From Gemmobacter aquaticus (GTDB lineage: Bacteria > Pseudomonadota > Alphaproteobacteria > Rhodobacterales > Rhodobacteraceae), in assembly GCF_007859075.1 (NCBI RefSeq), contig NZ_VOAK01000011.1:1054001-1118000 (forward strand): 64,000 nt of DNA, read 5' to 3'. Position 1 is the first letter of the stretch. The number at the start of each line of letters is the position of its first letter. The position numbers were made by a program, and so were the translations under genes. The notes under the pieces are model-generated. The model saw only the letters and a list, made by a program, of their open reading frames with translations. It did not search any database and was not told where the DNA came from. Shown one piece after another: positions 29,578-62,215 of this stretch.

Positions 29578-29683
29578 GGGCGTGTCCTGACGTGTTTGAG
29601 CGGTCATCTTGCACGGCCATTTTATGCGTGCCGATCTGTGCGCGACACCCCCGTCGCAATCGACCAATGCAATGGGGCGAAAC

Positions 29684-29712: not shown

Positions 29713-29737
29713 CTGCTTCCTGTGGTCGCGGCCTTGA

Positions 29738-30739: not shown

Positions 30740-30769
30740 TGTTGACCTCTTTCGTCGGTTATCCGCGCC

Positions 30770-30805
30770 CTTTAATCCGACTTTTTTACTTCGGTCAATC
30801 ATTGA
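30770..30805 (-). promoter_or_regulatory. Promoter and overlapping palindrome of the iron-binding protein gene
   Basis: On the minus strand: TTGACC (30798-30793), 17-base spacer, TTAAAG (30775-30770). An 11-base palindrome TCAATCATTGA (30795-30805) overlaps the -35 box, a position suited to a repressor. Iron control is a guess from the gene's function; no clear Fur or RirA box is recognised. Confidence 0.55.
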
Positions 30806-30823
30806 GTGAAGTAGTCGGGAAAT

Positions 30824-31678: not shown

Positions 31679-31741
31679 TTTGCGCTTCCTTCCGGGCTTA
31701 GACCCGAAGCCCCCGCAAGGAAAGCCCCGAGGAGCCCGCCC

Positions 31742-32911: not shown

Positions 32912-32922
32912 GGGAGGCGGCG

Positions 32923-33669: not shown

Positions 33670-33775
33670 TCAAACCATTTGACAAAACTGCCCCAATCGG
33701 CATTTTTGCGCCATCCGGATCCGGCGCGTCTCCGAAGCCCAGAATGACGACCGCTTTTCACCCGAGGAGCGTTCC

Positions 33776-34744
33776 ATGGCCCTTGAAGATGCCAAGAACG
33801 AGATCGACGCCGCATTCACCCGCAAGGGCGCATCGCGCGGCTATGCTTTTGAAAACGCCTTTGCCGGCGCCACGTCCTTCCTGCGGCGGACCTATACAAA
33901 GGACCTGACCGGGGTCGACCTTGCGATAACCGGCGTGCCCTTCGATCAGGCCGTCACCCATCGCACCGGCACCCGCTTTGGCCCGCGCGCCATCCGCGAG
34001 GCGAGCACGCTGCAGCCCTATGACCCGCCACATGGCTGGGGCACGGATCCGCTGGTCGATCTGAATGTCGTGGATTACGGCGATCTGGCTTTCGACTATG
34101 CGAAGACCGCCGACTTCCCTGACCGTCTGACCTCTCATATCCGAACGATCCTCACTGCGGGGGCGGGGTCGGTTACCCTGGGGGGCGATCACTACATCAC
34201 TTTCCCGATCCTCAAGGCCTATGCCGAAAAATTCGGACCGATGAGCGTGATCCACTTCGACGCCCATTCTGACCTGTGGGAAGATGACGATCTGACCCGG
34301 ATCGACCACGGCACCATGATGTACAAGGCGGTCAAGACCGGCCTCGTCGATCCCAAACGCTCGGTCCAGATTGGCATCCGCACCTTCTGCGAGGACTACC
34401 TTGGCATGAACGTCATTGACGCCCGCGAATGTCACGAGATTGGCATCGCCCGCATCGTTGAAAAGGCCAAGGCCATCGTCGGCGACAACCCTGTCTACCT
34501 GACCTTTGACATCGACGCGCTCGACCCTGCCTTCGCACCGGGCACCGGCACGCCGGTCTGGGGCGGCCTCGCCTCGTGGCAGGCCTCGGCGATCCTGCGC
34601 GACCTTGCCGGGATCAACATCGTCGGCGGCGACGTGGTTGAGGTCTCGCCCCCCTATGACACGACGGGCGCCACCGCCATTGCGGGTGCCCATGTCGCGC
34701 ATGAGATCATCTGCCTGTACCACTGGGCCAAGACCCGCCGCTGA
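33776..34744 (+). CDS. speB: Agmatinase/ureohydrolase-family enzyme
   Basis: Manganese ureohydrolase, 322 residues; agmatinase converts agmatine to putrescine and urea. The two-metal ligand set is complete: GGDH near residue 139, HFDAHSD near 161, and FDIDALDP near 244. Conserved substrate residues lie in HGTMMY near 178. Close relatives include guanidinobutyrase and proclavaminate amidinohydrolase, so the substrate assignment is moderately confident. ATG 33776 follows GAGGAGCG. It ends in a hairpin and precedes prfA. Confidence 0.85.
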
Positions 34745-34778
34745 CCGATCATTCTGGCGAGGCTACCTCGCATTGGGC

Positions 34779-34801
34779 ATGGGGGACCCGAAGTCCCCCA
34801 T
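34779..34801 (+). terminator. Hairpin between speB and prfA
   Basis: Perfect 9-bp stem ATGGGGGAC (34779-34787) and GTCCCCCAT (34793-34801), loop CCGAA, but no T-run follows. Either an unusual terminator or one of the GC-rich intergenic hairpins. Confidence 0.4.
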
Positions 34802-34848
34802 CGCTGCCGCCCCTTGACCCCGCCGGGCCATCGCGCCAAACCGCTGTC

Positions 34849-35904
34849 ATGGTTCCCTTCGACAAACTCGATCAGATCACCCGGCGTTTCGAATACCTCG
34901 AGGCGAAGCTCGCCGAAGGCGCTCCTCCGGCAGAGATTGCCGCGCTTTCGCGCGAGTATTCCGACCTCAAGCCGGTTGCCGCCGAGATTGCCGCCTATCG
35001 CCAGTCGCTTGATGATCTGACAGAGGCCGAGGCGATGCTTTCGGACCCCGACATGAAGGCTCTGGCCGAGGAGGAAATCCCCGTCCTGCGCGCCCGCATC
35101 CCCGAGATGGAGCAGGCCCTTCGCATCGCACTCCTGCCCAAGGATGCCGCTGACGCGCGCCCCGCGATTCTCGAGATCCGCCCCGGAACCGGGGGCGAGG
35201 AGGCGGCGCTGTTCGCAGGCGACCTTGCGCGCATGTATCAACGCTATGCCGAACGGATGGGCTGGCGGTTCGAGGTGCTTGAACAGCAACTGTCGGATCT
35301 GGGTGGCATCAAGGAGTTCACCGCCCATGTGCAGGGCGAGGGGGTCTTTGCGCGCCTGAAGTATGAAGCCGGCACCCACCGTGTGCAGCGCGTGCCCGAG
35401 ACCGAGGCCGGCGGCCGCATCCATACCTCTGCCGCGACCGTCGCCGTCCTGCCCGAGGCCGAGGAAGTGGATATCGACATCCCCGCCGCTGACATCCGCA
35501 TCGACACCATGCGCAGCAGCGGGGCAGGTGGCCAGCACGTCAACACTACCGACTCGGCCGTGCGGATCACCCACATCCCGACCGGGATCATCGTCACTTC
35601 CTCCGAGAAGTCACAGCACCAGAACCGCGCGATTGCCATGCAGGTTCTGCGCGCCCGCCTGTTCGAGATGGAGCGCGACCGCGCCGCCTCGGCCCGTGCG
35701 GCCGACCGCAAGGCGCAAGTGGGCTCAGGCGACCGCAGCGAGCGTATCCGCACCTACAACTTTCCCCAGGGGCGCATGACCGATCACCGCATCAACCTGA
35801 CGCTCTATGCGCTGCCGCAGATCATACAGGGCGACCTGACCGAAGTGATCGATGCCTTGATTGCCCATGATCAAGCCTCCAAATTGGCCGAGATGGAGGG
35901 ATGA
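34849..35904 (+). CDS. prfA: Peptide chain release factor 1
   Basis: Recognises UAG and UAA stop codons and triggers peptide release. 351 residues, shorter than RF2 at the N terminus as usual. The stop-codon reading tripeptide is P-E-T ([14 protein letters not shown]) where E. coli has PAT, and the catalytic loop [15 protein letters not shown] is intact. Overlaps prmC by four bases (ATGA), so the factor and the methylase that modifies its GGQ glutamine are translationally coupled. No strong ribosome-binding site precedes ATG 34849. Confidence 0.96.
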
Positions 35905-36746
35905 CGGCCCCCCGCACCATCGCCGATGCGTTTCGCGCAACCAGCACGATCCTTGCGTCGGCCGGGGTGCCTGAACCCGCCAAGGACGCGCGGTTGCTTT
36001 TGTCACATGCTGTTGGCCTGTCGTCAGACCGGTTGATCATGGCCATGCAGGAGCCTCTGCCAGACAGCGCCGAGCCCCGGCTCGCATCGATGGTCGAGGC
36101 ACGTTGCAAGCGTCAGCCAATCAGCCAGATCATCGGCCAGCGGCAGTTCTGGGGCCGCGACTTCCGCGTGACCCCGGACGTGCTCGACCCCAGGCCCGAA
36201 ACCGAGGTGCTGATCGCCGCCGCTCTCTCTGCGCCTTTCACGCGTGTTCTGGATCTTGGCACAGGTTCCGGCGCGATATTGGTGACCCTGCTCTCCGAAC
36301 GCCCATCCGCGCAGGGCGTGGCAACGGATCTTTCCCCCGCCGCGCTGGCCGTCGCGCAAGATAACGCCGTGCGCCTTGGTGTCGCGGAACGCGCCTCTTT
36401 TCTACCCGGAAGCTGGTTTGATCCGGTGCAGGGAATGTTTGATCTGATCGTGTCGAACCCGCCCTACATCGCGGCGGACGAGATTCCCGCCCTTTCACCC
36501 GAAGTGTTGAACTGGGAGCCGCATATGGCGTTGACGCCGGGCGGGGACGGGCTTGATGCCTATCGCGCCATCACTGCCGGTGCGCCGCACTACCTGCGAC
36601 CGAACGGGCGCCTCTTGATGGAGATCGGCCCGACCCAAGGGGCCGCGGTCGCAAGTCTCTGCCATGCGGCCGGACTGACATCGCCCAGCATCCTGCAGGA
36701 TATGGATGGACGCGATCGCGTGGTCTCGGCAGTTTTGGCGGTTTGA
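35901..36746 (+). CDS. prmC: Release-factor glutamine N5-methyltransferase
   Basis: Methylates the GGQ glutamine of RF1 and RF2 with S-adenosylmethionine. 281 residues: an N-terminal helical domain (about 1-85) and a Rossmann domain with DLGTGSGAI near residue 117 (SAM binding) and the substrate-glutamine motif NPPY near 185. It starts within the prfA stop codon, an arrangement conserved in many bacteria. Confidence 0.95.
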
Positions 36747-36997
36747 CTCTTTGCCTGCGGGCAACAGGTGCGGAAAATCGCCCAAAATGTACCGGTCACA
36801 GGGTAACAGCCCCAGAATCCGCTTGTCTTGCCGGCCGTCACATGATTACTCGGTTTTAGCAGTCGGGCGGATATAGCTCTCGCCGTCTGCGGTCTAGCCG
36901 AGACAGGTTGGCAACGAACATCGGGCCCTGCGGCCCCCTGATCCGCCACGCTGGTCACGGTGAAACCCGGTTCACCATATCCGGATCAAAGGACAAG

Positions 36998-37783
36998 ATG
37001 AGATCCTCGAAATCCCGTTCGCGTTCGAAATCGAACCGCCCGCGCTCGATCGGTAATATTATCAACCGTGTCTTCGACAGCTCGGGCCCTGAAGGCAAGG
37101 TCCGTGGCACGCCGCAACAGATCATCGAGAAGTATCTGATCCTCGCGCGCGATGCCCAGCTTTCGAACGACCGCGTTGCGGCCGAGAATTTTCTGCAGCA
37201 CGCAGAGCATTACACGCGTCTTCTGAGTGAGGCCCAGCGAGAGCTTGCGGCCGAGCAGGAGGCACGCCAGCAACATTTCCAGCAGAACGGCCAGCAGCAG
37301 TTCCGCGACCGTGGCAATGACGCGCCTCGGCCCGATCCGCGCGACGCGCGCGAGGATCGCGAAGTCGGCGTTGGCGATCAGCCCGATCTGGGCGATACGG
37401 TGATCTTCCCCGGCAAGGAAGAAGAGAGCCATCTGGTCGAAACGCCAGAGATGGCGCCACGTGACGCGCAACCCCGTCGTGAAGGCGAAGCCCGCCCGCC
37501 GAGGGAGCCGCGCGATCGTCGCGATTTCCGTGGCCAGCGTCCGCCGCGCGAGAACCGCCCGCCTCGCACCGAGGCCGAGGTTCAGCCGCAGCCCGCGCGC
37601 GTCGAGGTGGCCGAACAGACAGCCGCGCCTGCTGCCGCGCCCGCAAGCGAGGCCCCTGCAGCGGTGGCGGCGCCCGAGGGCGATGCACCTGCCAAGCCGC
37701 GCCGCGCCGCTGCGCCGCGCAAACCGCGTGCCGAAAAGCCAAAGACAGATCCGGTCGATCCAAAACCGGAAGCAGCAGAATGA
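36998..37783 (+). CDS. DUF4167 domain protein (RNA-binding-like, alphaproteobacterial)
   Basis: 261 residues. The N-terminal 80 hold the DUF4167 domain (RSIGNIINRVFDSSGPEGKVRGTPQQIIEKYL), found mainly in alphaproteobacteria and without an established function. The rest is low complexity: a Gln/Arg/Asp-rich stretch, a basic ARG-PRO segment (about 165-195) and an Ala/Pro/Lys-rich tail, suggesting a disordered nucleic-acid-binding protein. ATG 36998 has AAAGGA upstream. The preceding 250 bases hold no gene I can support and no clear promoter. Confidence 0.85.
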   Translation: MRSSKSRSRSKSNRPRSIGNIINRVFDSSGPEGKVRGTPQQIIEKYLILARDAQLSNDRVAAENFLQHAEHYTRLLSEAQRELAAEQEARQQHFQQNGQQQFRDRGNDAPRPDPRDAREDREVGVGDQPDLGDTVIFPGKEEESHLVETPEMAPRDAQPRREGEARPPREPRDRRDFRGQRPPRENRPPRTEAEVQPQPARVEVAEQTAAPAAAPASEAPAAVAAPEGDAPAKPRRAAAPRKPRAEKPKTDPVDPKPEAAE

Positions 37784-37786
37784 ACG

Positions 37787-37814
37787 CGGGGCCCGATGGG
37801 CCCCGTTTTCATTT
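37787..37814 (+). terminator. Terminator after the DUF4167 gene
   Basis: Perfect 8-bp stem CGGGGCCC (37787-37794), loop GAT, GGGCCCCG (37798-37805), then TTTTCATTT. It starts 4 bases after the stop codon and overlaps the end of convergent rsmA. Confidence 0.85.
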
Positions 37815-38648
37815 CACGATCTGCCGGGCAAGTGCGCAGAACTGTTCAAGCGAGATTTCTTCCGCCCGGGCCGTGGGCTCGATGCCGGCGGCCAGCAAGT
37901 GCGCTTCCACATCCGGACCCAGTCCCTTCAGTGACGACCGCAGCATCTTGCGGCGTTGGTTGAAGGCCATGGCCGTGATGCGTGACAAGACCTTGCCATC
38001 AGCCGGATAGCGCGGCTCGGCTAGCCGGGTCAGATGGACCACAGCGGAATGAACCTTTGGGGCAGGGGTAAATGCCTCGGGCGGCAGATGCATGACGATG
38101 CGGGCGTCGCAGCGCCATTGCGCAAGCAGCGCGAGGCGGCCGTAGTGATCGGTTCTTGGTCGCGCCACGATCCGCTCGGCAACCTCTTTCTGGAACATCA
38201 GCGTCAGGCTTTCCCAGAACGGCGGCCAGTTGTCGGGCGTCAGCCAACGGATCAGAAGCTCGGTCCCCACGTTGTAGGGCAGGTTTGCAACGATCCGGAT
38301 CGGCGGCGTCAGATGCGCCAGAACGTCAACCTCAAGCGCATCCCCGTGGATGACCTGCAGCTTGCCGGGATAGGCGGCCTCGATCTCGGCCAATGCGGGC
38401 AGACAGCGCGCATCCTTTTCAATGGCCAGAACCCGCCGCGCGCCTTCAGCCAGAAGACCACGCGTCAACCCACCCGGGCCCGGCCCAACCTCCAGCACGT
38501 CGCAACCGGACAAATCGCCTGCCTGACGCGCGATCTTTGCAGTCAGGTTGAGATCCAGCAGGAAATTCTGCCCCAACTGCTTTTTCGCCACCAGATCGTG
38601 CGCGCGGATCACCTCACGCAGGGGCGGCAGTCCGTCGATCGTCGCCAT
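37809..38648 (-). CDS. rsmA: 16S rRNA dimethyladenosine transferase
   Basis: KsgA: dimethylates A1518 and A1519 of 16S rRNA during 30S maturation, using S-adenosylmethionine. 279 residues with [11 protein letters not shown] near residue 22, the SAM loop [14 protein letters not shown] near 53 and the catalytic NLPYNVGT motif near 122. ATG 38648 is preceded by CAGGAG; an upstream extension is rejected. It is the last gene of the lptF-to-rsmA operon, 69 bases after pdxA. Confidence 0.96.
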
Positions 38649-38717
38649 GTGGAACGGCTCCTGTTCTTCACGCTGGTCCAAGTACCTTACAGCTGTGCGG
38701 GTGTGTGCTCTCCGCCA

Positions 38718-39698
38718 CTACGGTTGGCGTACCCGCGCCTCTGCCATGTGATGCGCCATGCGCAGGGCTGCAACAAGGCTTGAGGGCTCGGCGATGCCCT
38801 TGCCCGCAATATCGAGCGCCGTGCCATGATCCGGCGATGTCCGCACGAAGGGCAGGCCCAGCGTCACGTTCACACCGCCGTCAAAATCGATCGTCTTGAT
38901 CGGGATCAGCGCCTGATCGTGATACATGCAGATCGCGACATCATAGGTGGCGCGGGCGCGCGGGTGAAACATCGTGTCCGCCGGCAACGGACCGCGGATC
39001 GCCATGCCCTCAGATGCGAGCTTCGCGACAACAGGCGCGATGACGCGGGCATCCTCGGTTCCCATCGCGCCGCCTTCGCCCGCATGTGGGTTCAGCCCGG
39101 ACACGGCGATCCGGGGCCGGGTCAGGCCAAAGTCGCGACGCAGGCCAGCCTCGGTGATCCGGATCGTGGCCTCTAGCCCCTCAGCGGTGAGTTGGCGGGG
39201 CACTTCGCTGATCGGGATGTGGATCGTTGCCGGCACGACACGCAACTCGGGCGCGGCAAGCATCATCACCACCTGCTCGACACGGGCCAGAAAGGCCAGA
39301 AACTCGGTATGTCCCGGAAAGCCGAAGCCCGCGCCGTCCTTCAGCACCTTCTTGTTGATCGGAGAGGTGCAGATTGCCGCGACCTCGTTTTTCAACACCA
39401 TGTCCACGGCGCGGGCGATGACCTCAACCACGCCACGCGCGTTGGCATAGGTGATCTTTCCGGGGGTTGCCGGTGCCGCAAAGGGATGCGCCAGAACCGG
39501 CAGCTCGTTGGCCGGGACTGCCATGGCCTCGGCCGGGCGATGGATCAGCCGATGCGCGGTGTGCGGGGGCAGGTGGCGGGGGTCACCCATCCAGAAGAAC
39601 GGTACCTCGGCCCCAAGGATCTGGCGCGCCTTCACGGCAATTTCCGGCCCGATCCCTGCGGGCTCGCCGCAGGTCAGGGCGATGGGAAGGGAGCCCAT
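38718..39698 (-). CDS. pdxA: 4-hydroxythreonine-4-phosphate dehydrogenase
   Basis: Oxidises 4-phosphohydroxy-L-threonine in the DXP-dependent pathway to pyridoxal phosphate. 326 residues. ALTCGEPAGIGPEI at the N terminus is the family signature; the zinc histidines appear in FPGHTEF near residue 125, HAGEGG and CMYHDQ near 260, and TSPDHGTA near 290. Its start is two bases after the SurA-like stop, implying translational coupling. Confidence 0.96.
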   Translation of the reverse strand: MGSLPIALTCGEPAGIGPEIAVKARQILGAEVPFFWMGDPRHLPPHTAHRLIHRPAEAMAVPANELPVLAHPFAAPATPGKITYANARGVVEVIARAVDMVLKNEVAAICTSPINKKVLKDGAGFGFPGHTEFLAFLARVEQVVMMLAAPELRVVPATIHIPISEVPRQLTAEGLEATIRITEAGLRRDFGLTRPRIAVSGLNPHAGEGGAMGTEDARVIAPVVAKLASEGMAIRGPLPADTMFHPRARATYDVAICMYHDQALIPIKTIDFDGGVNVTLGLPFVRTSPDHGTALDIAGKGIAEPSSLVAALRMAHHMAEARVRQP

Positions 39699-39700
39699 GG

Positions 39701-40909
39701 TTACGGTGTCCGGATGATCGCGTTCGCCCGCAGGGTGGCCAGATACTGTTCAGCCATACGGTCAATCTTCACGTTCGCCAGCCGGTTGCGGATGTTCTCG
39801 CGCTCGATCGGCGGATCCGTGACCGGGGACCGCGTGCAGACCATCAGCACCTCGCGCGCACCACCCACATCGCGCACGACCATCTCGTTACGATCAAGCC
39901 GCGACAGCAGCAGGCCCACATCCGACGGGATCTGATCCATCGTCTGTTTGATGATCGAAAGCTGATCCTCCGGCAGGCCGGGGACGAGGCCGAAAAGGTC
40001 CTGACAGGTCTGTGCCTGGGTCTGGACTGTCGCAATCGCCGTATCGGATTCAGCCGAAATGGGCAGGCGCAGGCGCGCATATTCCACCTGCACGGGCAGC
40101 GTGGAGGTCTGCGGCCCTTCAACCACACTGCGGAGCTGGAAGAGGGCGACCCCGCCGGGGATCATCATCGGCGGCGAGACCTGTCCGGGTGCAAGCGGCA
40201 GCAGCAGGCCCGAGATCTGCGGGGGCAGGTTGGCAAGGGGCAGCGGATCGACGCGTCCACCGCGTTCGCGTGAGGGGGCAGCCGAATACTGTTCGACAGC
40301 CGCCGCAAATGACGCCTCACCGGTGACCGAACGACGGATGTCATTGGCCAGCGCCAGTGCCTTTTCTTCTTCCCCCGGATTCGCCGGGATGATCAGTTCT
40401 GCAATAGAGACGACCAGCGCCGCCTTTTTCGTCTCTGCCTCGAGCGCACGATCAATCTCTTCATCCGAGACCTTGGCCTTGCCGGTAAAGCGGCCGCGCA
40501 CAATCTCGCGCCAGACCACCCCAGCCTCGACGAAATCGCGGAACGTCTCGGGGGCGACACCCGCTTTGCCGAGTTGTTCGAGGAACTGCTCGGCCGTCAT
40601 GTTCGCGCGCTGCGCGAATTCTTCCATGCCCTTCTGGACATTTTCTTCCGTGGCGGTGACGCCAAAGCGGGCCGCCTCTTGCACCCGCAGGCGGTCAGCG
40701 ATCAGATCGTCCAATGCCTGCTTTTCCAGATCGCCGGGCGCGCGCATCAGGCGCATGAACAACAGCCGCTGCTGGAACTCATACTCGGTCACAGCGCTGT
40801 CATTGATGATGATGCGGGGCGCAAACAGGTTCTGCTGTGCTGCCGCCGGGATCGCCTGCGCGGAAAGTGCGATCAGGCTGGCGGTAAGCAGGGGCAGGAG
40901 ACGGGTCAT
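39701..40909 (-). CDS. surA: SurA-like periplasmic chaperone/peptidyl-prolyl isomerase
   Basis: Periplasmic chaperone for outer-membrane proteins. 402 residues: signal peptide (about 1-24, ending IPAAAQ), an N-terminal SurA domain with PRIIINDSAVTEYEFQQR, and a parvulin-like core in the middle (about 165-275; LVVSIAELIIP to GGRVDPLPLANLPPQISGLLL). The C-terminal 110 residues look like the second, degenerate parvulin module. Encoded between lptD and pdxA, consistent with helping LptD fold. ATG 40909 sits directly before the signal peptide. Confidence 0.9.
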   Translation of the reverse strand: MTRLLPLLTASLIALSAQAIPAAAQQNLFAPRIIINDSAVTEYEFQQRLLFMRLMRAPGDLEKQALDDLIADRLRVQEAARFGVTATEENVQKGMEEFAQRANMTAEQFLEQLGKAGVAPETFRDFVEAGVVWREIVRGRFTGKAKVSDEEIDRALEAETKKAALVVSIAELIIPANPGEEEKALALANDIRRSVTGEASFAAAVEQYSAAPSRERGGRVDPLPLANLPPQISGLLLPLAPGQVSPPMMIPGGVALFQLRSVVEGPQTSTLPVQVEYARLRLPISAESDTAIATVQTQAQTCQDLFGLVPGLPEDQLSIIKQTMDQIPSDVGLLLSRLDRNEMVVRDVGGAREVLMVCTRSPVTDPPIERENIRNRLANVKIDRMAEQYLATLRANAIIRTP

Positions 40910-40970
40910 CTTCGGGCAGTCTTTCCGTTGCGGCGCAGGGCCTTTGATATTCTGGCGCGGGTTCACGGCG

Positions 40971-43109
40971 TCAGCTCCGGCATGCCCGCGCGGGGCCGGC
41001 CTTGGCGCTGCCGCCAAAACCCAGAAGGTCCACCGAAAAGCCGATATCGGTGGTCGGGCTCACACTAGTCGAGGTCGTGAACCGGCGCGAGAGGGAAAGA
41101 TCCATGCGTAGACACTCGTTGCGGAATTCGACCCCGATGGCCGCGCGGTTTGCGCGATCAGCCTCGACGTCATAGCGGGTCGAGGCCATCCCCGTCCAGT
41201 TTGGCGACAGAGCATAGCGGGCGTCAAAGTAAAGCTCCTGCGTATCGGTCGGCCGGTTCTCGGCTTCATCGGCCTGAACCCAGACATACGAGGACGACAG
41301 CCCATACTTCTCGCGGTCGATATCGAGCCGCATTTCGGCCTTGGTCAGCTCCATCTCGGAATCGACGAGTGCCCGACCGGTCGCAGAAAGGCCCTGTGGC
41401 AGGGTGATCTGCCCGCTCAGCAGCCAGTTTGAGTTGATGCCATCGAGGCCCGAGGCCGTGGTGAACTGCCCCTCGTCCTCGGTTCGGTAGACACGACCGG
41501 CGGCCATCGAGAGGCTCCATCCAGTCGGGTCGAACCGTGTCCAGACCATCCCGAGGTTCAGCCGTTTGCCTTCTTCACGCGCGTCATTGCCGGAAAACCG
41601 GCTAAGCGAGAACAGGTTGCCCTCGTCGAATTCGACCAGAGCACTGTCCTCATTTGGGATGTCGCCGTCCTCTGACGGTGCCAGCACGACCTGCACCACC
41701 GGCTCGATCACATGCGAGGCGCCGTCGGCGGTTGATCCGGTCCAGGGCCAGCGCAGCTCGGCCGCGACCGCGCCGGACAGCCGGGTCTGGTTGCCCTCGT
41801 AGATGATGTCCTGCTGGATCGAATAGATGTCCGCATTTCCCTCGGCAAAGAGAGATCCCACCACACCGGGTCCAAAGATCCAGTTTCGCCGCCAGTCAGC
41901 CCTGATCGTGATGCGCGCCATGTCGCGCCCCTCGGGCTGACCGTTGTCGTAGAAGGGAGATGTCGAGGTCCGCTCATGGGCGTGCGATTGCAGTCGCAAG
42001 CCCGCCTCGCCACCCAGCGGGCCGCCAGAGAAGCGCCGGTGCCATGTGAAATCGCCAATCAGCGTGGGCAGGGTCGCGTTGTCCTCAAGCTCGCCGCCGA
42101 CGTCCCGGATCGAATAGTAGTGCACGATCCGGCCCGAGATGTACTCGTTGCGCCGGGTGCGGCTGATCTCGAGCCGGCTGTCGATCCGGTCGGTATCAGA
42201 GATGTCATAGTCCAGCAGATACCCCGGATCGCTGACCGTCATGCCATTGAAGGCCAGCAGGAAGTCATCGGGCAGACGGAACTCACCCATGGCCTGCAGA
42301 TAGCCGCGCTGCTCATCGGGCAGGATTTCATCGTAGGACAGGGCGCCGTTCAGCTCGACCCACCCGCTCTGGAACGCCTCACGGTAGCGAAGGTCCAGCG
42401 TGCGGCCGTTCTTGGTGGACAGGAACGGGGCCAGCGTGATGTCCCTGCTGGGCCCCAGAGGGATGAAGTAGGGCAGCGTGATGCCCGCCCCGAGCTGCGA
42501 ATTATTCCGGAAGTCGGGCGCCAGAAAGCCCCGCGCGCGTTGCAGCGTCGGGTCCGGCAGGCGCAACCGGGGCAGCCAGGCCACGGGAACGCCAACAAAC
42601 CGCAGTTGCGCGTCGTCGAACCACAGCTGTTGGGCGACCTGATCGTGCACCACCCGACTTGCGCGCACCTCCCACAGCGGCGTGGGGGCGACGGTGCAGA
42701 CCTGGCACGACGAGGCAACCGTATCCGTCAACTCGGTGTACCGCCCCTGTGTGCGAAACATCTGTCGCGCAGCGATCTGCATCTGACGATCCAGCACCAC
42801 CCGTGCAGAGGTCAGAAGTCCCTCGGACAGATCGGTCGAAAGCTCTGCCGCGTCGGCAGTGACGATATTGCCCTTGGCATCGACCACCGTCAGCGGTCCG
42901 GTAATGCTGAGGTGATCAGCGTCGCGATCATAGGTCACTGCCTTGGCGCGCACGATTTGTCCCCGATAGCGCATTTCGACCCCGCCTTCGGCCTGAAGCA
43001 CGGAATCGCCGGTGACCATGACCCGGTCGGCCTGCAAGGTCGCCAGATCCTGCGCGTTGACCGGCAGGGCAGTCAGCGCCAGAAGCGCGAGAAGTGGTAG
43101 CCTGCGCAT
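40971..43109 (-). CDS. lptD: LPS-assembly outer-membrane protein LptD
   Basis: Outer-membrane beta-barrel that with LptE inserts lipopolysaccharide in the outer leaflet. 712 residues: signal peptide ending PVNAQ, a periplasmic OstA/LptA-like beta-jellyroll (about 25-115), then a large barrel domain (about 190-712). Four cysteines are visible, C135 and C138 (SCQVC) and C666 and C710, a two-plus-two N/C arrangement that would allow the interdomain disulfides known in LptD. Start overlaps the lptG stop by one base (TGATG). Confidence 0.94.
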   Translation of the reverse strand: MRRLPLLALLALTALPVNAQDLATLQADRVMVTGDSVLQAEGGVEMRYRGQIVRAKAVTYDRDADHLSITGPLTVVDAKGNIVTADAAELSTDLSEGLLTSARVVLDRQMQIAARQMFRTQGRYTELTDTVASSCQVCTVAPTPLWEVRASRVVHDQVAQQLWFDDAQLRFVGVPVAWLPRLRLPDPTLQRARGFLAPDFRNNSQLGAGITLPYFIPLGPSRDITLAPFLSTKNGRTLDLRYREAFQSGWVELNGALSYDEILPDEQRGYLQAMGEFRLPDDFLLAFNGMTVSDPGYLLDYDISDTDRIDSRLEISRTRRNEYISGRIVHYYSIRDVGGELEDNATLPTLIGDFTWHRRFSGGPLGGEAGLRLQSHAHERTSTSPFYDNGQPEGRDMARITIRADWRRNWIFGPGVVGSLFAEGNADIYSIQQDIIYEGNQTRLSGAVAAELRWPWTGSTADGASHVIEPVVQVVLAPSEDGDIPNEDSALVEFDEGNLFSLSRFSGNDAREEGKRLNLGMVWTRFDPTGWSLSMAAGRVYRTEDEGQFTTASGLDGINSNWLLSGQITLPQGLSATGRALVDSEMELTKAEMRLDIDREKYGLSSSYVWVQADEAENRPTDTQELYFDARYALSPNWTGMASTRYDVEADRANRAAIGVEFRNECLRMDLSLSRRFTTSTSVSPTTDIGFSVDLLGFGGSAKAGPARACRS

Positions 43110-53462: not shown

Positions 53463-53549
<87 letters not shown>

Positions 53550-54527: not shown

Positions 54528-54538
<11 letters not shown>
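54212..54538. other. 327-base gap before the second tRNA-Gln
   Basis: No gene or RNA that I recognise. The central part (about 54350-54450) is markedly more AT-rich than its surroundings and contains ATATAACAATATATTG, which could be promoter DNA for the tRNA or a recombination scar. The last 11 bases belong to the direct repeat. Confidence 0.4.
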
Positions 54539-54614
<76 letters not shown>

Positions 54615-54641
54615 CAACCATCCTTGATCGTTGCGCTGAGT

Positions 54642-54666
54642 ACCCCAATCGGATGGTGATTGGGGT
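54642..54666. other. Inverted repeat downstream of tRNA-Gln copy 2
   Basis: ACCCCAATC (54642-54650), 7-base loop, GATTGGGGT (54658-54666). No T-run, so not a clear terminator; it may be a protein-binding site or an island-boundary sequence. Confidence 0.4.
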
Positions 54667-54802
54667 TGGCCCTTGAGGTACCCCAAACGCGTATTTCGGG
54701 TTGCCCCGCGAGCATCCACCCGCAAACCGAAGCTGCGCCATGACGAAATTCAGGCGACCAGGCAGTGAGCATACCCTCGAACGATGCAGTCTCAGCCAAG
54801 CT

Positions 54803-55819
54803 TCAACCTGGGTTGCCTCTCTGAGACTTGAACCTCTTCGGGCTGGCACCCGTCCAGCGCAGCATGGCGCGCGTGAACGATGATTGGTATTCATAGCCAA
54901 GATCGCCGGAAACCGACTTCGCAGTTGCATTTGGCATCGACATAAGCCTCATGGCGTGGGTTTGACGCACCTCTTCCACCAGATCGGAATACACAAGGCC
55001 TTCACCAGACAGCCGTCTTTGAAATGTTCGAACGCTGGTGCCGCTGAGTTTTGCCATTTCTCGAATGGTCGGGATGTCCTCGGCCAACATTGATACCAAC
55101 ATGGTCTTTACGCTGCCCCCGAAACTACCGTCACCGCGGATGGGTTCGAGAGCGGGAAGGCGCCCGCTAAGAAGATGATCACGCGCCACCCTGGGAAAGG
55201 GCCGCTCGGCCATCGACGCATCCAGCACAATATGAGTTCCGCGACGCTCGGAGGGCCGGACGGCATCGCCGAACCAGGTACGCAGATGCTTCACACCAAA
55301 ATCTGGATGTGGCGGCAGATCGATCAGGGTCATTCTCGGACCAGCAGCGCCAGTCATACCAAGCAGCCGATCCGCCATGGCGACCGCATATTGCAACAAC
55401 AAGTGCTCGGTCTCGGGATCGAACTTGACCGTGTACGAGTGCCAGACGTCGACAGATGACGGCGCGACCTTGATTGCGAGTTGTTCGTGCGAGCAGAAGA
55501 CTGGCAACACCGCAGATATACGCGAAAGCGCCTCAATGGGTGTACGGGTCCCGAGTGCCACTGCGCCAAGAAGCGCAAGCTCGGTCGTGCTTGCCTCTGC
55601 GACGATCCGGCAGGCGACGTCGGGTCCTTCTTTGCGGGCAAGCGCCCGCAGAAAACCGCCGACATGCAGCAACGGAACGGGGCGAAATGGGTCGCCAAAC
55701 GGCGCTGAAGACAGTCCGAAGGGTTGAAGAAACGGCTCACAATCGATGTCACGCGCCTTCAACCAGCTGATCGCAGGCGACAGCGACAAGGCGCGGATCA
55801 TCGGAACTGCGTGCGGCAT
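54803..55819 (-). CDS. AraC-family regulator with arabinose-binding-like domain
   Basis: 338 residues: an N-terminal ligand-binding domain of the PF12625 type (about 20-210) and a C-terminal double-HTH AraC domain (about 235-330; TIREMAKLSGTSVRTFQRRLSGEGLVYSDL and VSGDLGYEYQSSFTRAMLRWTGASP). Regulators of this architecture (OruR, VirS) usually control a divergent catabolic or exported-enzyme operon. Here the divergent neighbour is the DUF1254 fusion gene, 132 bases away, which makes it the likely target. GGGGGG precedes ATG 55819. Confidence 0.87.
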   Translation of the reverse strand: MPHAVPMIRALSLSPAISWLKARDIDCEPFLQPFGLSSAPFGDPFRPVPLLHVGGFLRALARKEGPDVACRIVAEASTTELALLGAVALGTRTPIEALSRISAVLPVFCSHEQLAIKVAPSSVDVWHSYTVKFDPETEHLLLQYAVAMADRLLGMTGAAGPRMTLIDLPPHPDFGVKHLRTWFGDAVRPSERRGTHIVLDASMAERPFPRVARDHLLSGRLPALEPIRGDGSFGGSVKTMLVSMLAEDIPTIREMAKLSGTSVRTFQRRLSGEGLVYSDLVEEVRQTHAMRLMSMPNATAKSVSGDLGYEYQSSFTRAMLRWTGASPKRFKSQRGNPG

Positions 55820-55951
55820 GTGCCCCCCTGCAAGTTGAAACCATCAATGGCTTCATTTCCCTGTCTATTCAAGTTCTGGCACCAAAAGACAAATCCCGCG
55901 ACCGACTTCAGCCGAGAACATAGGAAACAATCACGAAGGAAGGCCCGGAGG

Positions 55952-58897
55952 ATGCTTTTGGACCGAGAGACGAGCTTTGAATCCTGTTCCGGAATGACTT
56001 TTACGGCCCTTCAACCCCCACAAGCGGATTCTGACAGGACTGCATGCCGCCGCAGAGGACTGCGATCGAAATTGTGTGCGGCGGTCGCCGGTTCAGCGTT
56101 TCTTGGCATTACGGGGAACGCACTTGCACAGACCGTCGATCCAGACCTAAGCATAGACGAGTTCCGCACCACGGTCGAAGAGGCGTATGTGTACGCCTTT
56201 CCAATGCTGGTCGCCTACAAGGTGCTGCACGACTACAATGTGGATCAGAAATCGGGCGCATTCCTTGCCCCGTTCAACCAGCTTCACAACGAAGCGCGGG
56301 TGTTCTCTCCCAAAGATACCACCATCGTCACACCTAACAGCGATACGCCCTATTCCATGGTGCAACTCGACCTGCGGGCAGAGCCGATGGTGTTCTGCCT
56401 GCCTGAGGTCGACAAGGCCCGCTATTACAGCGTGCAGTTGACCGACATGTTCACCAACAACTTCGGGTATATGGGCAGCCGCACCACCGGCAATGGCGCC
56501 GGATGCTACATGGTGGCAGGACCAGAATGGACTGGCGAGACACCCAAGGGCATCAAATCCGTCTTCACCAGCGAAACCGACTTCACCTTCTCGATCTTCC
56601 GTACCCAGTTGTTCAACCCGGACGACATGCCGAATGTCGAGAAGGTCCAGGCAGGATACAAGGTGCAGCCTCTCTCGGCCTTTCTGGGTCAGCCTGCCCC
56701 TGAGGCCTCACCGGAGATTGACTGGCCGGAACTGACGCCCACCGCCCTTGGCGCCGACTTTCCGAAGTATCTCAACTTCCTGCTGCAATTCGCACCACAG
56801 TCCGCGCTCCCCGAGTCCGAACAGAAGCTGCTGGCCAACTTCGCCCGGATCGGGATCAAGGCGGGCGAGCCCTTCGACAGCACGAAGCTTTCCGCCGACC
56901 AGCAGACAGCCCTTGGCGACGCGATCAAGTCAGCCACTGCCAAGATTGGAGCCGCGGCGGATTCTATCGGCGTTGCGGTCAATGGCTGGCAGGTTGGCGC
57001 CGCTGCGGGTAGCCGCGACTTTTTCAACGGCAACTATGCGCTGCGCGCGGCCGGTGCCAAGGTCGGCATCTACGGTAACGACGCCGAAGAGGCGAGCTAT
57101 CCCTTCGCCCGCAACGATGTGAACGGGGTGCCACTGGATGGCAGCCGCCACGACTATACGCTGACCTTTCCGGCCGGCGCATTGCCACCGGTTAACGCCT
57201 TCTGGTCGATCACCATGTACGACGGCGATACGCAGCTTCTGATCGATAACCCGATCAACCGGTACCTGATCAATGCGCCGATGCTGAAGGATCTCAAGAC
57301 AAATGCCGACGGCTCGCTGACGCTGTACATACAGCACGAAAGCCCCGGCAAGGATCGGGAATCCAACTGGCTGCCCGCCCCCGCCGGCCCGATCTTCATG
57401 GTCATGCGGCTCTACTATCCAAGGACCGAAGCCCCGTCCGTGCTGCCTGTCGGGCAAGGAACATGGCAACCACCGGGAGTCATTCCGGTTCGCAACGATC
57501 GCGCGCAGAACGTGACGCGGTTCGGCGACAAGTCGCTGGAAACCGTGGTCCGCACCGATGATCGCTATGGGCATGACAGCTTCTTCCAAGGACCGCGCGG
57601 CTGGCCCTACTGGAACATGCTGGAATATCCCAAGCCGATCCAGAACCCGAACCTTTGGCCGGACACCCAGTCCACCTACTTCCTGTCGCGGTTTGCCCTG
57701 CCCGCCGGCAGCACTCTGACGCTTCGTGGCGCGTTCCCGCGCGCGCGCTACTTCAAGTATGCGCTCTACAAGTCCGCGCGGGGAACGTTCGTGTCCACGG
57801 GCGAGGATCTGGCCGGAAAAGCGATCGTCCCAGATCCGGGATCGACCAATCCGTTCGTCGTCGGCAACAACCGTCTGACCGAGCCCCGTGACTATACCAT
57901 CAGAATCGTGGCCCAGGATCCGCCAAAGGATGCCAACGACCGCCAGCCCAACACGCTTTATGCAGGCACGGATGGGGGTGAGCTGCAGATGGTGATGCGG
58001 ATCTACTTGTCAGATCAGGGCAGCGATGGTGCGGGATGGGGCCCCTGGGCCTCGGGGACGTCGAAGCGCGGCCTGCCGACGCTGGAAGGCACGCTTGCCG
58101 ACGGCACCCTGCTTGAGGGCGAGGCCGCCGCTTCCGCCTTCGGTCGCCCCACCAAGGGTGGCACCGCGCAGCCCTTCACCGCCAAGCAATGGGAGGCGCT
58201 GGTGACTGCCAAGGGCAATGACCCGGCGCTTGATCCTGCAACGGCGCCCGCGCGGAAAGAGGTCCGTTGGGAGAAGTACTGGAGCATCCCCTATTCGATC
58301 CTGGGGGCCTTCAAGACCCCAGAAGAGCAGGCGAAGATCCCATTTGCGGGCGCCACGGATGCAGGCGGTGACACAGAAACGCAGTACATGATCGTGCATC
58401 TGTCGCGCCAGTTCGGCCCGGTTTTCGTGACGCGCGGCAAGCTGCCCACCTTCCCCGACACCTATGCCGGGGCTACCGGTCAGGGGCTTGCGGTCATGCC
58501 CGAGGCTCAGACTCAGTACTTCTCGATCGTCAGCTGCGAAGCCGCACCTTCGGGACAGATCGTTGACGGACTGATCGACATGCAGATCCCGGTCGACAAG
58601 GACGGCAACTATACCATCGTCTACAGCCGTGCCGAAGACCGCCCGGCCAATGCAACCGAAGAGAACGGCGTTGCATGGATCGAATGGAGCCCGCGTGGCG
58701 AGGGGATCAGGGGCCCCGGTAACCGCACCGATTTCGGCATGTTGATGATGCGGATCATGGCCCCTAGCGCGGACTGGGCCGAAAGCCCGGCCAACGTGAC
58801 CAAGCCCGGCGATGAGGAAAAGATCATGGGCGCCTACTACCCCAAGGGCGAATACACGACCAAAGAGGCATTCGAGGCGCTTGGGGCTGCTCCGTAA
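55952..58897 (+). CDS. Exported DUF1254/DUF1214 protein fused to a second unknown module
   Basis: 981 residues. A long basic N-terminal region with CRRRGLRSK leads into a hydrophobic signal (AAVAGSAFLGITGNALAQ), so the protein is probably exported. DUF1254 spans about 67-250 (TIVTPNSDTPYSMVQLDLRAEP), DUF1214 about 382-488 (PPVNAFWSITMYDGDTQLLI), ending GQGTWQPPGVIPV near 510, where stand-alone relatives stop. A further 460 residues follow (from about RNDRAQNVTRFGD), including STYFLSRFALPAGSTLTLRG and WSPRGEGIRGPGNRTDF, which I do not recognise. Start ATG 55952 has AAGGAAGG 8 bases upstream; ATG 55994 is possible. No enzyme activity can be assigned. Confidence 0.8.
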   Translation: MLLDRETSFESCSGMTFTALQPPQADSDRTACRRRGLRSKLCAAVAGSAFLGITGNALAQTVDPDLSIDEFRTTVEEAYVYAFPMLVAYKVLHDYNVDQKSGAFLAPFNQLHNEARVFSPKDTTIVTPNSDTPYSMVQLDLRAEPMVFCLPEVDKARYYSVQLTDMFTNNFGYMGSRTTGNGAGCYMVAGPEWTGETPKGIKSVFTSETDFTFSIFRTQLFNPDDMPNVEKVQAGYKVQPLSAFLGQPAPEASPEIDWPELTPTALGADFPKYLNFLLQFAPQSALPESEQKLLANFARIGIKAGEPFDSTKLSADQQTALGDAIKSATAKIGAAADSIGVAVNGWQVGAAAGSRDFFNGNYALRAAGAKVGIYGNDAEEASYPFARNDVNGVPLDGSRHDYTLTFPAGALPPVNAFWSITMYDGDTQLLIDNPINRYLINAPMLKDLKTNADGSLTLYIQHESPGKDRESNWLPAPAGPIFMVMRLYYPRTEAPSVLPVGQGTWQPPGVIPVRNDRAQNVTRFGDKSLETVVRTDDRYGHDSFFQGPRGWPYWNMLEYPKPIQNPNLWPDTQSTYFLSRFALPAGSTLTLRGAFPRARYFKYALYKSARGTFVSTGEDLAGKAIVPDPGSTNPFVVGNNRLTEPRDYTIRIVAQDPPKDANDRQPNTLYAGTDGGELQMVMRIYLSDQGSDGAGWGPWASGTSKRGLPTLEGTLADGTLLEGEAAASAFGRPTKGGTAQPFTAKQWEALVTAKGNDPALDPATAPARKEVRWEKYWSIPYSILGAFKTPEEQAKIPFAGATDAGGDTETQYMIVHLSRQFGPVFVTRGKLPTFPDTYAGATGQGLAVMPEAQTQYFSIVSCEAAPSGQIVDGLIDMQIPVDKDGNYTIVYSRAEDRPANATEENGVAWIEWSPRGEGIRGPGNRTDFGMLMMRIMAPSADWAESPANVTKPGDEEKIMGAYYPKGEYTTKEAFEALGAAP

Positions 58898-59016
58898 CCG
58901 GGCTGGCAGGTCGCAAGGATGAATGTGCAGTGCCACCCCGCGCCGCGAACACTCAAATCAGCCTCCAGAAACCGGGCCGAACGGCATGGACTGGCCGAGG
59001 AAAAGGATATCCAACC

Positions 59017-60594
59017 ATGAATGCTCTCTCGCTTATTCCCGTCGTGACCATGGCCCTTGTGCTGCACGCCGGCCCATCTCTGGCCGAAACACCGTCTAAC
59101 CTTGAGGCTGCAAACGGCCCGATCCCCGGGGATGTGACGCTCTACGCCAAGGAATTGGCCTGCCAGCAGGCCATCCCGACGCCTGGCTATTTCTCGTCGC
59201 TGAATGGCGCCGAAATCTCGGATGCACAGCGCAGTGGCAGGTTTCCCTGCGCCACGTTTACCGGGTCTTTTGATGGCCCCAACACGGTGTTCGCCTTCCG
59301 CAGCATCGACGACTACCCTGGCATTTCCTACATCAACAACCGGCGTCCGGGCGAACTTTACATCGTCGGTGGCGAGTATCCGACCAAGGACGACCCCAAC
59401 ATGGTTGGCCCCTATATCGCCAAGGCGGATGCCACCACAGGCAAACAGGTCTGGCGTACCTACCTTGACAACCTCAATGTCACCGGTCGCTGGATTGGCA
59501 ACGCCAACCTTAACATCCTGGCCGACGGCAACATTGCCTTCGCGTGGTCAAGCTTCATCGCGCTTCTCGATGGTGACACCGGCGAGATTCTGAAAATCAA
59601 CGCTCTGCCCGGCGGCGAGGCGCCGATCGAGGATGTGAACTTCAAGCATTTGACCATCGCGCCTGACGGCACGCTGATCCTGAAAAGCCAGACCCGCCCG
59701 GTTGGCTGTACGCTTCAGGGCACGATGGCCATCATTGAATGCTCGGCGCAAGGGATGAAGCTGCCGAACTCGGTGATGGTCGCGGTCGATCCGAAGACTC
59801 TGGACGTCCTGGACATGTTTCAGCTTCCGCAGACCGCCGCCTCGCCGCACATCATTGCGCCCTACGGGGACAAGATCGCGATTTATGTGCCGATGTTCGA
59901 CATTCTCGCGCGCTACTTCTGGGATCCGGCGACCAAGAAGATCACCGCCGATGATACCTGGGTCGGCCGTCCGCTGGTTGAGGGCCAAAAGGCCCTGACC
60001 GCACCTTCGATCATTAATGACTGGGTCGTGGTGCAGACCAACGGATTGCTCAGCAAAGACAAGGGCTCCAGCGTTGTCGTCTTCCACAAGGATGATGTCA
60101 GCAAGACCCATTCGATCTTTCCATTTGGCGAGGAGCTTGGCGTCGCAGGGTTCAGCTGGGCTCCGCCAAAGAACGGCACTGATCCGGAAAACAACATGCT
60201 CTATTCGGCCGACATGGGGATGAAGAAGGTCGCCGGAATCAAGATCGACCCGGTCACGGGCGAATTGTCTACTGCCTTCGTTCTCGACAACATCACCAGC
60301 ACGTTCCAGCCTGTTTTTGGCCCGGCGGAGAAGCGGGTGCTGGTGTTGACCAATGTCAAACTGCCCGTCGCCATAGAGCCGGTCCCGCTGGCAATCAAAA
60401 GCTCGAACTACACCGAACAGGTGACCTGGCGCGACGCAGCGACCGGAAAGATCTTGGCGGAATCCGATTTCTTCGAGCCGCTCTCTCTCAACGCGCTGAC
60501 ACCTCCGGGATTTGGCGGCCGGGTCTACTTCCCGACGGCAGAGGGCAAGGGGTTTTACGTCCTGCAGCCCATGCCCGCCACCCCTGCCCAATAG
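59017..60594 (+). CDS. Exported PQQ-like beta-propeller protein of unknown function
   Basis: 525 residues with a Sec signal peptide (MNALSLIPVVTMALVLHAGPSLA). The rest repeats short beta-rich blade units with recurring A(x)DATTG/LDGDTGE/VDPKTL turns, the pattern of PQQ-like/quinoprotein propellers, for instance KADATTGKQVWRTYL and LLDGDTGEILKIN. Four cysteines lie in ELACQQ, RFPCATF and VGCTLQGTMAIIEC, possibly two disulfides. No catalytic or cofactor motif is identified. It starts 119 bases after the DUF1254 fusion stop on the same strand, so they probably act together. AGGA precedes ATG 59017. Confidence 0.72.
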   Translation: MNALSLIPVVTMALVLHAGPSLAETPSNLEAANGPIPGDVTLYAKELACQQAIPTPGYFSSLNGAEISDAQRSGRFPCATFTGSFDGPNTVFAFRSIDDYPGISYINNRRPGELYIVGGEYPTKDDPNMVGPYIAKADATTGKQVWRTYLDNLNVTGRWIGNANLNILADGNIAFAWSSFIALLDGDTGEILKINALPGGEAPIEDVNFKHLTIAPDGTLILKSQTRPVGCTLQGTMAIIECSAQGMKLPNSVMVAVDPKTLDVLDMFQLPQTAASPHIIAPYGDKIAIYVPMFDILARYFWDPATKKITADDTWVGRPLVEGQKALTAPSIINDWVVVQTNGLLSKDKGSSVVVFHKDDVSKTHSIFPFGEELGVAGFSWAPPKNGTDPENNMLYSADMGMKKVAGIKIDPVTGELSTAFVLDNITSTFQPVFGPAEKRVLVLTNVKLPVAIEPVPLAIKSSNYTEQVTWRDAATGKILAESDFFEPLSLNALTPPGFGGRVYFPTAEGKGFYVLQPMPATPAQ

Positions 60595-60865
60595 CGATCA
60601 CACGATATGGCAGGGCTAAACTCCAGGAGCGTGAGTTAGCTCGACAGGCGTGTCTTCCCGTCCAAACCGGGTGGACGAAACTGATCTGCCATACACTGCC
60701 CAATATCAAGGCCTTCCACTGCTACCGCACTCTTCAACGCTCTCGAGAGATTGTTGGTCGCAGGGTCAGCCTCGATTCCGCCAACTTGGTGCGCTGCCAT
60801 TGCTTTGTGCCCCCCGATATCTCCTCGATCTGCTTCCAGAGTCCGGCCTATGGAGCGGGCTGAAC
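60595..60865. other. Non-coding stretch with possible IS left end
   Basis: No gene. TGATCTGCC at 60682-60690 resembles the terminal sequence of some IS3-family elements and could be the left end of the insertion-sequence remnant that follows. Confidence 0.35.
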
Positions 60866-60946
60866 ATGAAGAGATCGAGGTTCACGGAAGAGCCGATCGT
60901 TGAGATTTCGCAGAGGCAGGAAGCCGGAGCGAAGACAGAGTTGTGA
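60866..60946 (+). pseudogene. Truncated IS3-family transposase OrfA remnant
   Basis: A 26-codon fragment starting MKRSRFTEEPIVEISQRQ matches the start of IS3-family (IS407-like) OrfA transposases, normally MKRSRFTEEQIIGILKEQ, and ends at a premature stop after EAGAKTEL. The usual helix-turn-helix remainder and OrfB are missing. Confidence 0.75.
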
Positions 60947-61099
60947 TGCAGGCAATGAATGTCAGAGGGGACGCAAACGCCCGCAGCCCATTGCTCCGCT
61001 CCCTCAGCGCAATGGCGCCAAATTCAACCGTTGGCACTGGTTTCGGCTGAACAAAAGCAGGGGGCAGAGCAGCCGGGCAGCATGTTGCCCCCCTTGTCT
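60947..61099. mobile_element. Residual IS3-like sequence between the transposase fragment and aroB
   Basis: No gene. GGCAGAGCA at 61063-61071 is, on the opposite strand, TGCTCTGCC, a near match to TGATCTGCC at 60682 and a candidate right end. If both ends are real the decayed element spans about 60682-61071. Confidence 0.4.
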
Positions 61100-62215
61100 T
61101 CAGCGCGCGGCAATCGCGTTCGTCAGAACATCAAGGACCTTGTCTGATGGCACATCATCGGCAACGAAAGCCTCACCGATACCGCGCGCCAGAATGAAGC
61201 GCAGCTTGCCGTCCTGAACCTTCTTGTCCTGCCCCATCAGCTCCAGCAAAGCCTCGGGCCCGGGCAACTCGCCCGGAATATCGGCGACGTCGACCTTCAT
61301 GCCCATGCTGCGCAGATGGGCCCGCACGCGGCTTGGGGCCTCTTGCGAGCAGAGGCCAAGCCGCTGGCTCAACTCAAAGGCAAGCGCGCATCCAATGGCG
61401 ACACCCTCGCCATGCAGCAGCCGGTCCGAATAGCCGGTGGCCTTTTCAAGCGCGTGGCAGAAGGTATGACCGAGGTTCAGCAGCGCGCGATCCCCCTCTT
61501 CGGTTTCATCGCGTGAGACGATGTCGGCCTTCATCTCGACCGACCGGCGCACGGCGTACTGACGTTTGGTACGATCTGGCGCAAGTTCGGGGCCATTCAC
61601 CTCCAGCCAGTCGAAGAACGCAGCATCACCAAGAAGGCCGTATTTCACGACCTCGCCATAACCGGCCAGAAAATCGCGTTTGGGCAGACTTTCAAGGATG
61701 CCGATATCGGCCAGAACCAGTGACGGCTGGTGGAAGGCGCCTACAAGGTTCTTGCCCTGGGCCGTGTTGATCCCGGTTTTGCCACCGACCGAACTGTCGA
61801 CCTGAGCCAGCAGCGTCGTGGGGATCTGCACGAAGCGCACGCCGCGGCGCAGGACGGCCGAGGCAAAGCCGACAAGATCGCCGATGACACCACCTCCAAA
61901 GGCCACGACGACATCGCGACGTTCCACCTTTTGTTCGAGCAGCCATTCGACGCAGCGGGCAAATTGCGGCCAGCCCTTGGTGCTTTCACCTGCCGGCAGG
62001 GCAAGGCTGACGGTCGCAATTCCTTCGGCTGCAAAGGCCGCCTCAAGCGCGGCAAGATGCAGCGGCGCCACGGTCTCGTCCGTGACAATCGCCACCCGTT
62101 TGCGGCGCAGCATGGGAGCAATCTCTTGCCCTGCCCGGCCGATCAGCCCCGCCCCGATCCGCACCTCATAGCTGCGCGCACCAAGCGCGACGGGAACCAC
62201 ATCGACCCCGGTCAT
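61100..62215 (-). CDS. aroB: 3-dehydroquinate synthase
   Basis: Second shikimate-pathway enzyme: converts DAHP to 3-dehydroquinate with NAD and zinc. 371 residues with FGGGVIGDLVGFASAVLRRGV near residue 105 (NAD loop), VDSSVGGKTGIN near 140, the zinc ligands in GYGEVVKYGLL near 184, and NLGHTFCHALE near 252. Start is the ATG one base after the aroK stop, with AAGGA in the end of aroK, so translation is coupled. An upstream extension inside aroK is rejected. Confidence 0.96.
   Translation of the reverse strand: MTGVDVVPVALGARSYEVRIGAGLIGRAGQEIAPMLRRKRVAIVTDETVAPLHLAALEAAFAAEGIATVSLALPAGESTKGWPQFARCVEWLLEQKVERRDVVVAFGGGVIGDLVGFASAVLRRGVRFVQIPTTLLAQVDSSVGGKTGINTAQGKNLVGAFHQPSLVLADIGILESLPKRDFLAGYGEVVKYGLLGDAAFFDWLEVNGPELAPDRTKRQYAVRRSVEMKADIVSRDETEEGDRALLNLGHTFCHALEKATGYSDRLLHGEGVAIGCALAFELSQRLGLCSQEAPSRVRAHLRSMGMKVDVADIPGELPGPEALLELMGQDKKVQDGKLRFILARGIGEAFVADDVPSDKVLDVLTNAIAAR

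Follow-up and report, generated by a model that had tools for sequence, protein, structure and literature searches.

An apparently undescribed, putatively AraC-controlled envelope cassette built from uncharacterised protein families in Gemmobacter aquaticus

Proteins with DUF1254 and DUF1214 domains are widespread, and no established function for them was found in the literature searched. The two domains normally occur together in one protein of ~490 aa, as represented by VPA0735 (2p3y, 3vb9) and VPA0106 (3u07) of Vibrio parahaemolyticus, both deposited as uncharacterised. In the available excerpts of three papers the domain appears in tables or in a remark only (PMC3751524, PMC6710368, PMC6299218), and a Malassezia DUF1214 protein was presented by its authors as a jelly-roll glycosyl hydrolase on the basis of a homology model only (PMC4634964). 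Full-text literature on DUF1254, DUF1214, DUF2092, VPA0735, PF06863, PF06742 and COG5361, partly represented by excerpts and with most subscription papers outside its scope, yielded no description of the cassette reported here, and the cassette is apparently undescribed. It is known in kind, as an AraC-controlled envelope operon, and is built from uncharacterised families. With a mobile cassette that includes its regulator and a recognisable operator, the function of DUF1254/DUF1214 proteins becomes testable.

The cassette lies in the window, by which we mean the whole 64,000-nucleotide stretch analysed (C1:1054001-1118000 of the source genome, G000), and coordinates are given relative to it. 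An AraC-family regulator of 338 aa (54803-55819, minus strand) carries the domains PF12625 Arabinose_bd (37.0 bits, cut-off 27.6) and HTH_18 (49.3 bits, cut-off 33.6). Its closest NCBIfam match is the AraC-like QhpR (NF049968), but at 93 bits against a cut-off of 250 this assignment was rejected, and the regulator is therefore not QhpR. The initial annotation had placed it divergent from a 981-residue protein, and this arrangement is borne out, although the region start given there, 55820, misses the regulator, which sits just outside. The divergent gene, hereafter the fusion gene (55952-58897, plus strand), encodes 981 aa from an ATG 132 bases from the AraC gene, with an alternative in-frame TTG start at 55958. 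A further gene of 525 codons (59017-60594, plus strand), hereafter the propeller gene, follows after 119 bases, and the open reading frame coordinates confirm the spacing and strand first noted. All three are intact open frames. The N-termini of both plus-strand products look signal-like by eye, and export of the two proteins is predicted on this basis and plausible. Scans for sigma-70 promoters and terminators gave results at chance level.

The whole cassette is contained in ~6.5 kb (54615-61148) missing from the corresponding junction of two congeners. A tRNA-Gln (54539-54613, plus strand) marks its left edge, and a block inside a gene read as aroB starts at 61149; the spacing between tRNA and block is 156 bases in G010 and 133 in G003, versus 6,534 here. 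In the remaining 8/10 congeners the two flanks either share a contig but are widely separated (G005, G006) or fall on separate contigs (six genomes), and these eight therefore do not bear on the insertion. Neither the propeller nor the C-terminal half of the fusion protein had a match in any of the 10 congeners. An insertion sequence remnant, the start of a transposase orfA (60808-60943, plus strand; 26 codons at 60866-60943), lies downstream of the propeller gene, so the flanking tRNA and IS remnant that had been described are both present. Positions 60808-60936 recur with 77% DNA identity at two further sites of the genome. At the one inspected, the matching bases include the beginning of an 88-codon frame that encodes an HTH_Tnp_1 transposase domain (91.4 bits); the remnant's 26 codons alone had no Pfam match. 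The tRNA-Gln itself lies in an exact 87-base duplication (53463-53549 and 54528-54614), the copies of which enclose a tRNA-Arg and a gene that we take to be acetyltransferase-like. Congener G010 has two tRNA-Gln copies ~100 bases apart, with the tRNA-Arg/acetyltransferase block on another contig.

The first plus-strand product had been labelled a fusion of DUF1254 with DUF1214. This is mistaken, as the two domains are usual partners within a single protein. They are present here in that order, at residues 108-240 (56273-56671, plus strand; 150.1 bits, cut-off 22.2) and 380-491 (57089-57424, plus strand; 128.3 bits, cut-off 25). The protein is not the ~490-aa unit alone; what is unusual is an extra, conserved C-terminal half of ~470 residues (residues ~514-981; 57491-58894, plus strand) with no Pfam match. 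NCBIfam names neither this protein nor the propeller. VPA0106 matches residues 74-489 in sequence (E 3.9e-37) and VPA0735 residues 123-491, and both stop where the C-half starts. Folding of the whole chain from 20 sequences gave a model of moderate quality (pLDDT 73.5, pTM 0.49), in which the predicted first half resembles VPA0735 and VPA0106 with Z of 29.6 and 29.0 (3vb9_B: rmsd 3.1, 403 aligned). The fusion protein is thus a larger relative of the VPA0735-like family. Standalone DUF1254/DUF1214 relatives are ~500 aa long, for example in L017, and the C-half is found separately (see below); hence the protein combines two families that are each also found on their own. In plasmids, such standalone DUF1254/DUF1214 relatives occur in 266 records, chiefly of Sinorhizobium and Rhizobium; among the 30 matches listed of these, identity to the fusion protein is 52-55% and none spans 80% of the query.

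The predicted C-half (model residues 481-919) best matches the fold of 6ans, an uncharacterised Burkholderia cenocepacia protein (Z 14.8, rmsd 4.1, 268 aligned). Identity is 13%, the C-half sequence profile did not pick up 6ans, and its 369-residue chain lacks a DUF1254/DUF1214 half. This score is well clear of the following entry, RetS (Z 6.6), and of Cea1A (Z 5.7), where values below 8 may mean little. Sequence searches of the PDB with single sequences of the fusion protein, the propeller and a plasmid relative from pPAMH19, and with profiles of the fusion protein and the C-half, returned VPA0106 and VPA0735 for the first half and otherwise chance-level matches only. No catalytic residues or known catalytic motif were identified. 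An internal repeat in the C-half was considered and rejected: DUF1214 aligned with the first C-half segment by hhalign over 40 columns at 38% identity (probability 17.8%, pairwise E 0.0014), and the two C-half segments share only 21 columns at 1.4% probability.

The second product had been called propeller-like on sight, and structure prediction agrees: an AlphaFold2 model from 30 sequences (pLDDT 89.8, pTM 0.90) has a predicted eight-bladed propeller. The predicted fold matches YxaL (7dxn, 7eq5; Z 33.1 by VIA-align), an Rv3035 homologue (9p3g; Z 31.3), the eight-bladed design Tako8 (Z 29.2) and BamB (up to Z 27.8), and identity to YxaL, the Rv3035 homologue and BamB is 11-15%. Conserved Lys, His and Arg positions of the propeller are K210, H211, R227, H278, R299, K385 and R502. 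The only Pfam signal, PQQ_2/BamB, is sub-threshold (11.8 bits, cut-off 27.6), so that BamB family membership at the cut-off is not found. PQQ-dependent dehydrogenases are also among the fold matches (4cvb, 1kv9 and 4mh1, by Foldseek and VIA-align; 4mh1_B with Z 26.2, rmsd 3.0 and 379 aligned), and PQQ-dependent alcohol dehydrogenases have the eight-bladed fold in common with the model and with Tako8. The propeller might accordingly be read as a quinoprotein redox enzyme of that type, with the fusion protein as its substrate-delivery partner. However, an adjacent Cys-Cys disulfide near the cofactor is a feature of PQQ-dependent alcohol dehydrogenases, and neither adjacent cysteines nor CXXCH occurred in the aligned portions, most of which lack the N-terminus, of 30 members of the propeller family. 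None of these 30 aligned portions matched either of two regular expressions written for the tryptophan docking motif, the folds of YxaL and the Rv3035 homologue lie nearer than those of the dehydrogenases, and the PQQ_2 match falls under its cut-off. We consider the quinoprotein reading improbable.

Co-occurrence of the genes was followed in genome contigs scanned with a five-sequence propeller alignment, which gave 34 propeller loci in other species, and the contents of these were determined by tblastn. A fusion gene lies upstream of the propeller gene on the same strand in 18/34 (L023-L035, L037, L039, L040, L052 and L054), from Alphaproteobacteria to Verrucomicrobia and Ignavibacteriae. Thus the co-occurrence is conserved, and the adjacency supports the earlier proposal that these genes form a cassette. 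The gap between the two genes is 13-191 bases in 14/18 rows measured, the window included. The fusion gene is frameshifted in L026, has its first half split between frames in L039 and is cut by the contig start in L027; in L052 the propeller after the fusion gene is truncated, with a full one 3 kb further along. Five loci (L029, L030, L031, L032 and L040) have one fusion gene followed by two or three propeller genes.

At least 15/34 propeller loci are without the fusion gene, and the propeller is therefore not tied to it. Eleven of these (L043-L051, L053, L055) have an OprB-like porin instead, assigned by similarity with Pfam run on two. The C-half occurs without the first half in two loci from Eremiobacterota and Pseudanabaena MAGs (L036 and L038, in the latter on the other strand), L041 has two Y236-like genes, and L056 has no fusion gene within 6 kb upstream of the propeller. 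L042 is cut at its upstream side.

Both components are otherwise rare. The propeller was found in 5/101 genomes (two of them by weak fragments) and in 4/292 genomes of the order, the source genome included in each count, and in the source genome alone among 398 in the phylum sample. For the C-half, neither the set of 147 relatives nor the 385 genomes sampled from the class gave any carrier besides the source genome. The phylum (398) and class (385) samples added no new loci, and plasmid and phage collections contained no relative of the propeller. Given this rarity, adjacency in 18/34 loci is far beyond chance. The closest locus, a Rhodobacterales MAG (L023), has the same gene order with identities of 74% (AraC), 83-85% (fusion) and 86% (propeller), and its DNA matches the window within the cassette only. 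Propeller identities to the window are 59-89% in the 17 of 18 fusion loci aligned. The spread of the cassette, judged from these comparisons, looks horizontal. A mobile element could instead have carried the genes together with no common function, as the adjoining tRNA-Gln and the IS remnant would allow. This would need one recent transfer for all 18 loci, with which the range of propeller identities does not fit, and the pairing across several phyla, the restriction of the L023 match to the cassette and the conservation of the operator described below also speak against it; we regard such hitch-hiking as very improbable.

Full-length AraC matches (32-74% identity) lie close to the cassette in 6/18 fusion loci (L023, L024, L025, L026, L039 and L052) and in 10/11 OprB loci; the one in L026 is in two pieces, and that in L052 runs off the contig. 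L029, L031, L045 and L054 have matches to the C-terminal DNA-binding part only. In the 12/18 fusion loci outside those six no full-length AraC match was seen, some of their contigs ending nearby, and none of the 11 of these that were scored has a comparable operator site; hence the fusion-propeller pair can exist without this control.

Where the regulator is present, a putative operator accompanies it. In the window the candidate site (55874-55896, plus strand) reads TTTTGGCRCGNNAAGNNAAANNC and sits 55 bp 5′ of the fusion ATG. A 23-base block is common to the AraC-operon intervals of six divergent loci (window, L023, L025, L026, L039 and L052), chosen by eye as training sites for a matrix. On leave-one-out, with the window and L023 left out together, each of the six sites ranked 1 of 25,644-127,956 positions of its own locus, the window site first of 127,956. 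Of the loci outside the training set, L024 and ten OprB loci match the AraC over its full length, and all 11 have a site within the 330 positions around the first start, scoring 14.2-28.8 and ranking 1-2 of 28,770-43,034 positions, whichever side the AraC gene is on; for each locus, 1-11 of 300 column-permuted matrices did equally well. The top-ranked site also adjoins the cassette in L024, ahead of an X213-type gene, and in L044, where a second AraC gene is close by; the highest-ranking position of L043 and of L047 is in another part of the locus. In L046 and L047 the site is 5′ of the propeller even though the AraC gene occupies the opposite end of the operon. Fifteen loci lacking a full-length AraC match (14 of the 34, and L017) score at most 6.9; L045, with a match to the DNA-binding part only, scores 6.7 at rank 9, and L031, on a short contig, 4.4 at rank 2. 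Given the choice of training sites by eye and the shared descent of the loci, these tests are not fully independent.

A strict core of the motif has one match in the 3.99-Mb source genome, at 55877-55893, against 0 for the backward control. Among genomes of the same family, G362 has one match (control 2), ahead of its propeller; G015 has 5 (control 3), one of them ahead of the propeller; and G302 has 5 (control 7). G023 has 13 (control 4). On contig C26 of G302 a further exact match to the pattern lies within a 284-codon frame. Between the window and L023, 20/23 motif bases are identical versus 63/109 in the remaining interval. The candidate site thus accompanies this particular AraC, and the AraC link to the operon that had been suggested is supported by comparison, with a conserved site that tracks the regulator and a strict core unique in the genome. 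The site probably turns the operon on.

The X213 type is a family with no Pfam match. In L024 its gene (5041-5520) stands behind its own operator-like site at 5676, and in L026 (6121-6810) it lies between operator and fusion gene. It links the fusion-type and OprB-type cassettes and has no match in G000. The nearest AraC paralogue of the source genome (32%; L079, 4222-9153, contig C26) forms a divergent pair with a sulfatase gene, and the interval between the two contains a weaker operator-like site (score 15.2).

Taken together, our verdict is that this is a real envelope cassette, with AraC control supported by comparison. We hold it somewhat probable that it is a horizontally transferred cassette with its own regulator whose products act as a pair on an organic compound, a role in handling such a compound in the envelope that we infer. 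The AraC protein would bind the candidate operator and activate the operon upon binding an organic effector, as the regulator family suggests. The fusion protein and propeller, by the look of their N-termini, would reach the periplasm or the outer surface by export, where conserved adjacency and accompanying channels suggest that they act jointly on the compound. The DUF1254/DUF1214 half and the C-half would be largely beta-sandwich modules that bind or hydrolyse it, and the propeller may hold or process the ligand or scaffold the pair. Besides the OprB-like porins, FadL/TodX-family genes lie directly before the fusion gene in two Atopomonas loci (L033, L034), and such channels in other cassette versions fit a compound entering from outside. 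Both proteins could also be structural or adhesive, a BamB-like scaffold with a lectin-like surface protein that process no substrate: BamB is among the propeller matches, the C-half weakly resembles the sensor and lectin beta-sandwiches of RetS and Cea1A at the low Z given above, and a known catalytic motif was not found. Dedicated AraC control together with OprB/FadL channels is, however, more typical of inducible uptake or catabolism, and the patchy horizontal spread also argues against a structural role, which we judge rather unlikely. Within the reading of a pair acting on an organic compound, a more specific version, possible but doubtful, would be a new inducible envelope system in which AraC senses the compound, a two-protein periplasmic machine captures and cleaves it, and OprB and FadL channels are interchangeable by lineage; if true, it would give DUF1254/DUF1214 proteins their first biochemical role. 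Finding the compound that triggers the operator may in turn reveal what the family does. The propeller and C-half, for their part, become defined families with partners.

Clues to the compound conflict, the Malassezia DUF1214 model suggesting a glycan-like one and FadL, DUF2092 and the setting on plasmid pPAMH19 of P. aeruginosa (L021) a hydrophobic one. That plasmid has a C-half homologue (29.9% identity over 88%) in an operon with DUF1302, DUF1329, YCF48-like and MMPL genes, which resemble envelope transport genes, with sterol desaturase and SDR genes nearby and a FadL-type gene ~7 kb upstream. No DUF1254/DUF1214 gene is annotated in the pPAMH19 stretch, and the propeller was found in no plasmid record. 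By analogy with this operon and with neighbouring DUF2092 genes, described as LolA-like in PMC4520260, lipid or sterol handling is suggested as one option. DUF2092 genes occur near propeller or DUF1254 genes in L017, L030, L045, L052, L054 and L056 and in the plasmid loci L081 and L082. The pPAMH19 operon adjoins a mercury resistance operon.

A Pfam search of the source genome found five DUF1254 genes. A PF12625 AraC gene stands divergent to 4/5 of them (on contigs C1, C26, C24 and C4); the fifth (C25) has no AraC gene beside it. Hence the pairing of AraC with DUF1254 is wider than this cassette. The three further AraC-paired genes, on C26, C24 and C4 (L018, L019 and L117), are DUF1254/DUF1214 genes, each with its own divergent regulator.
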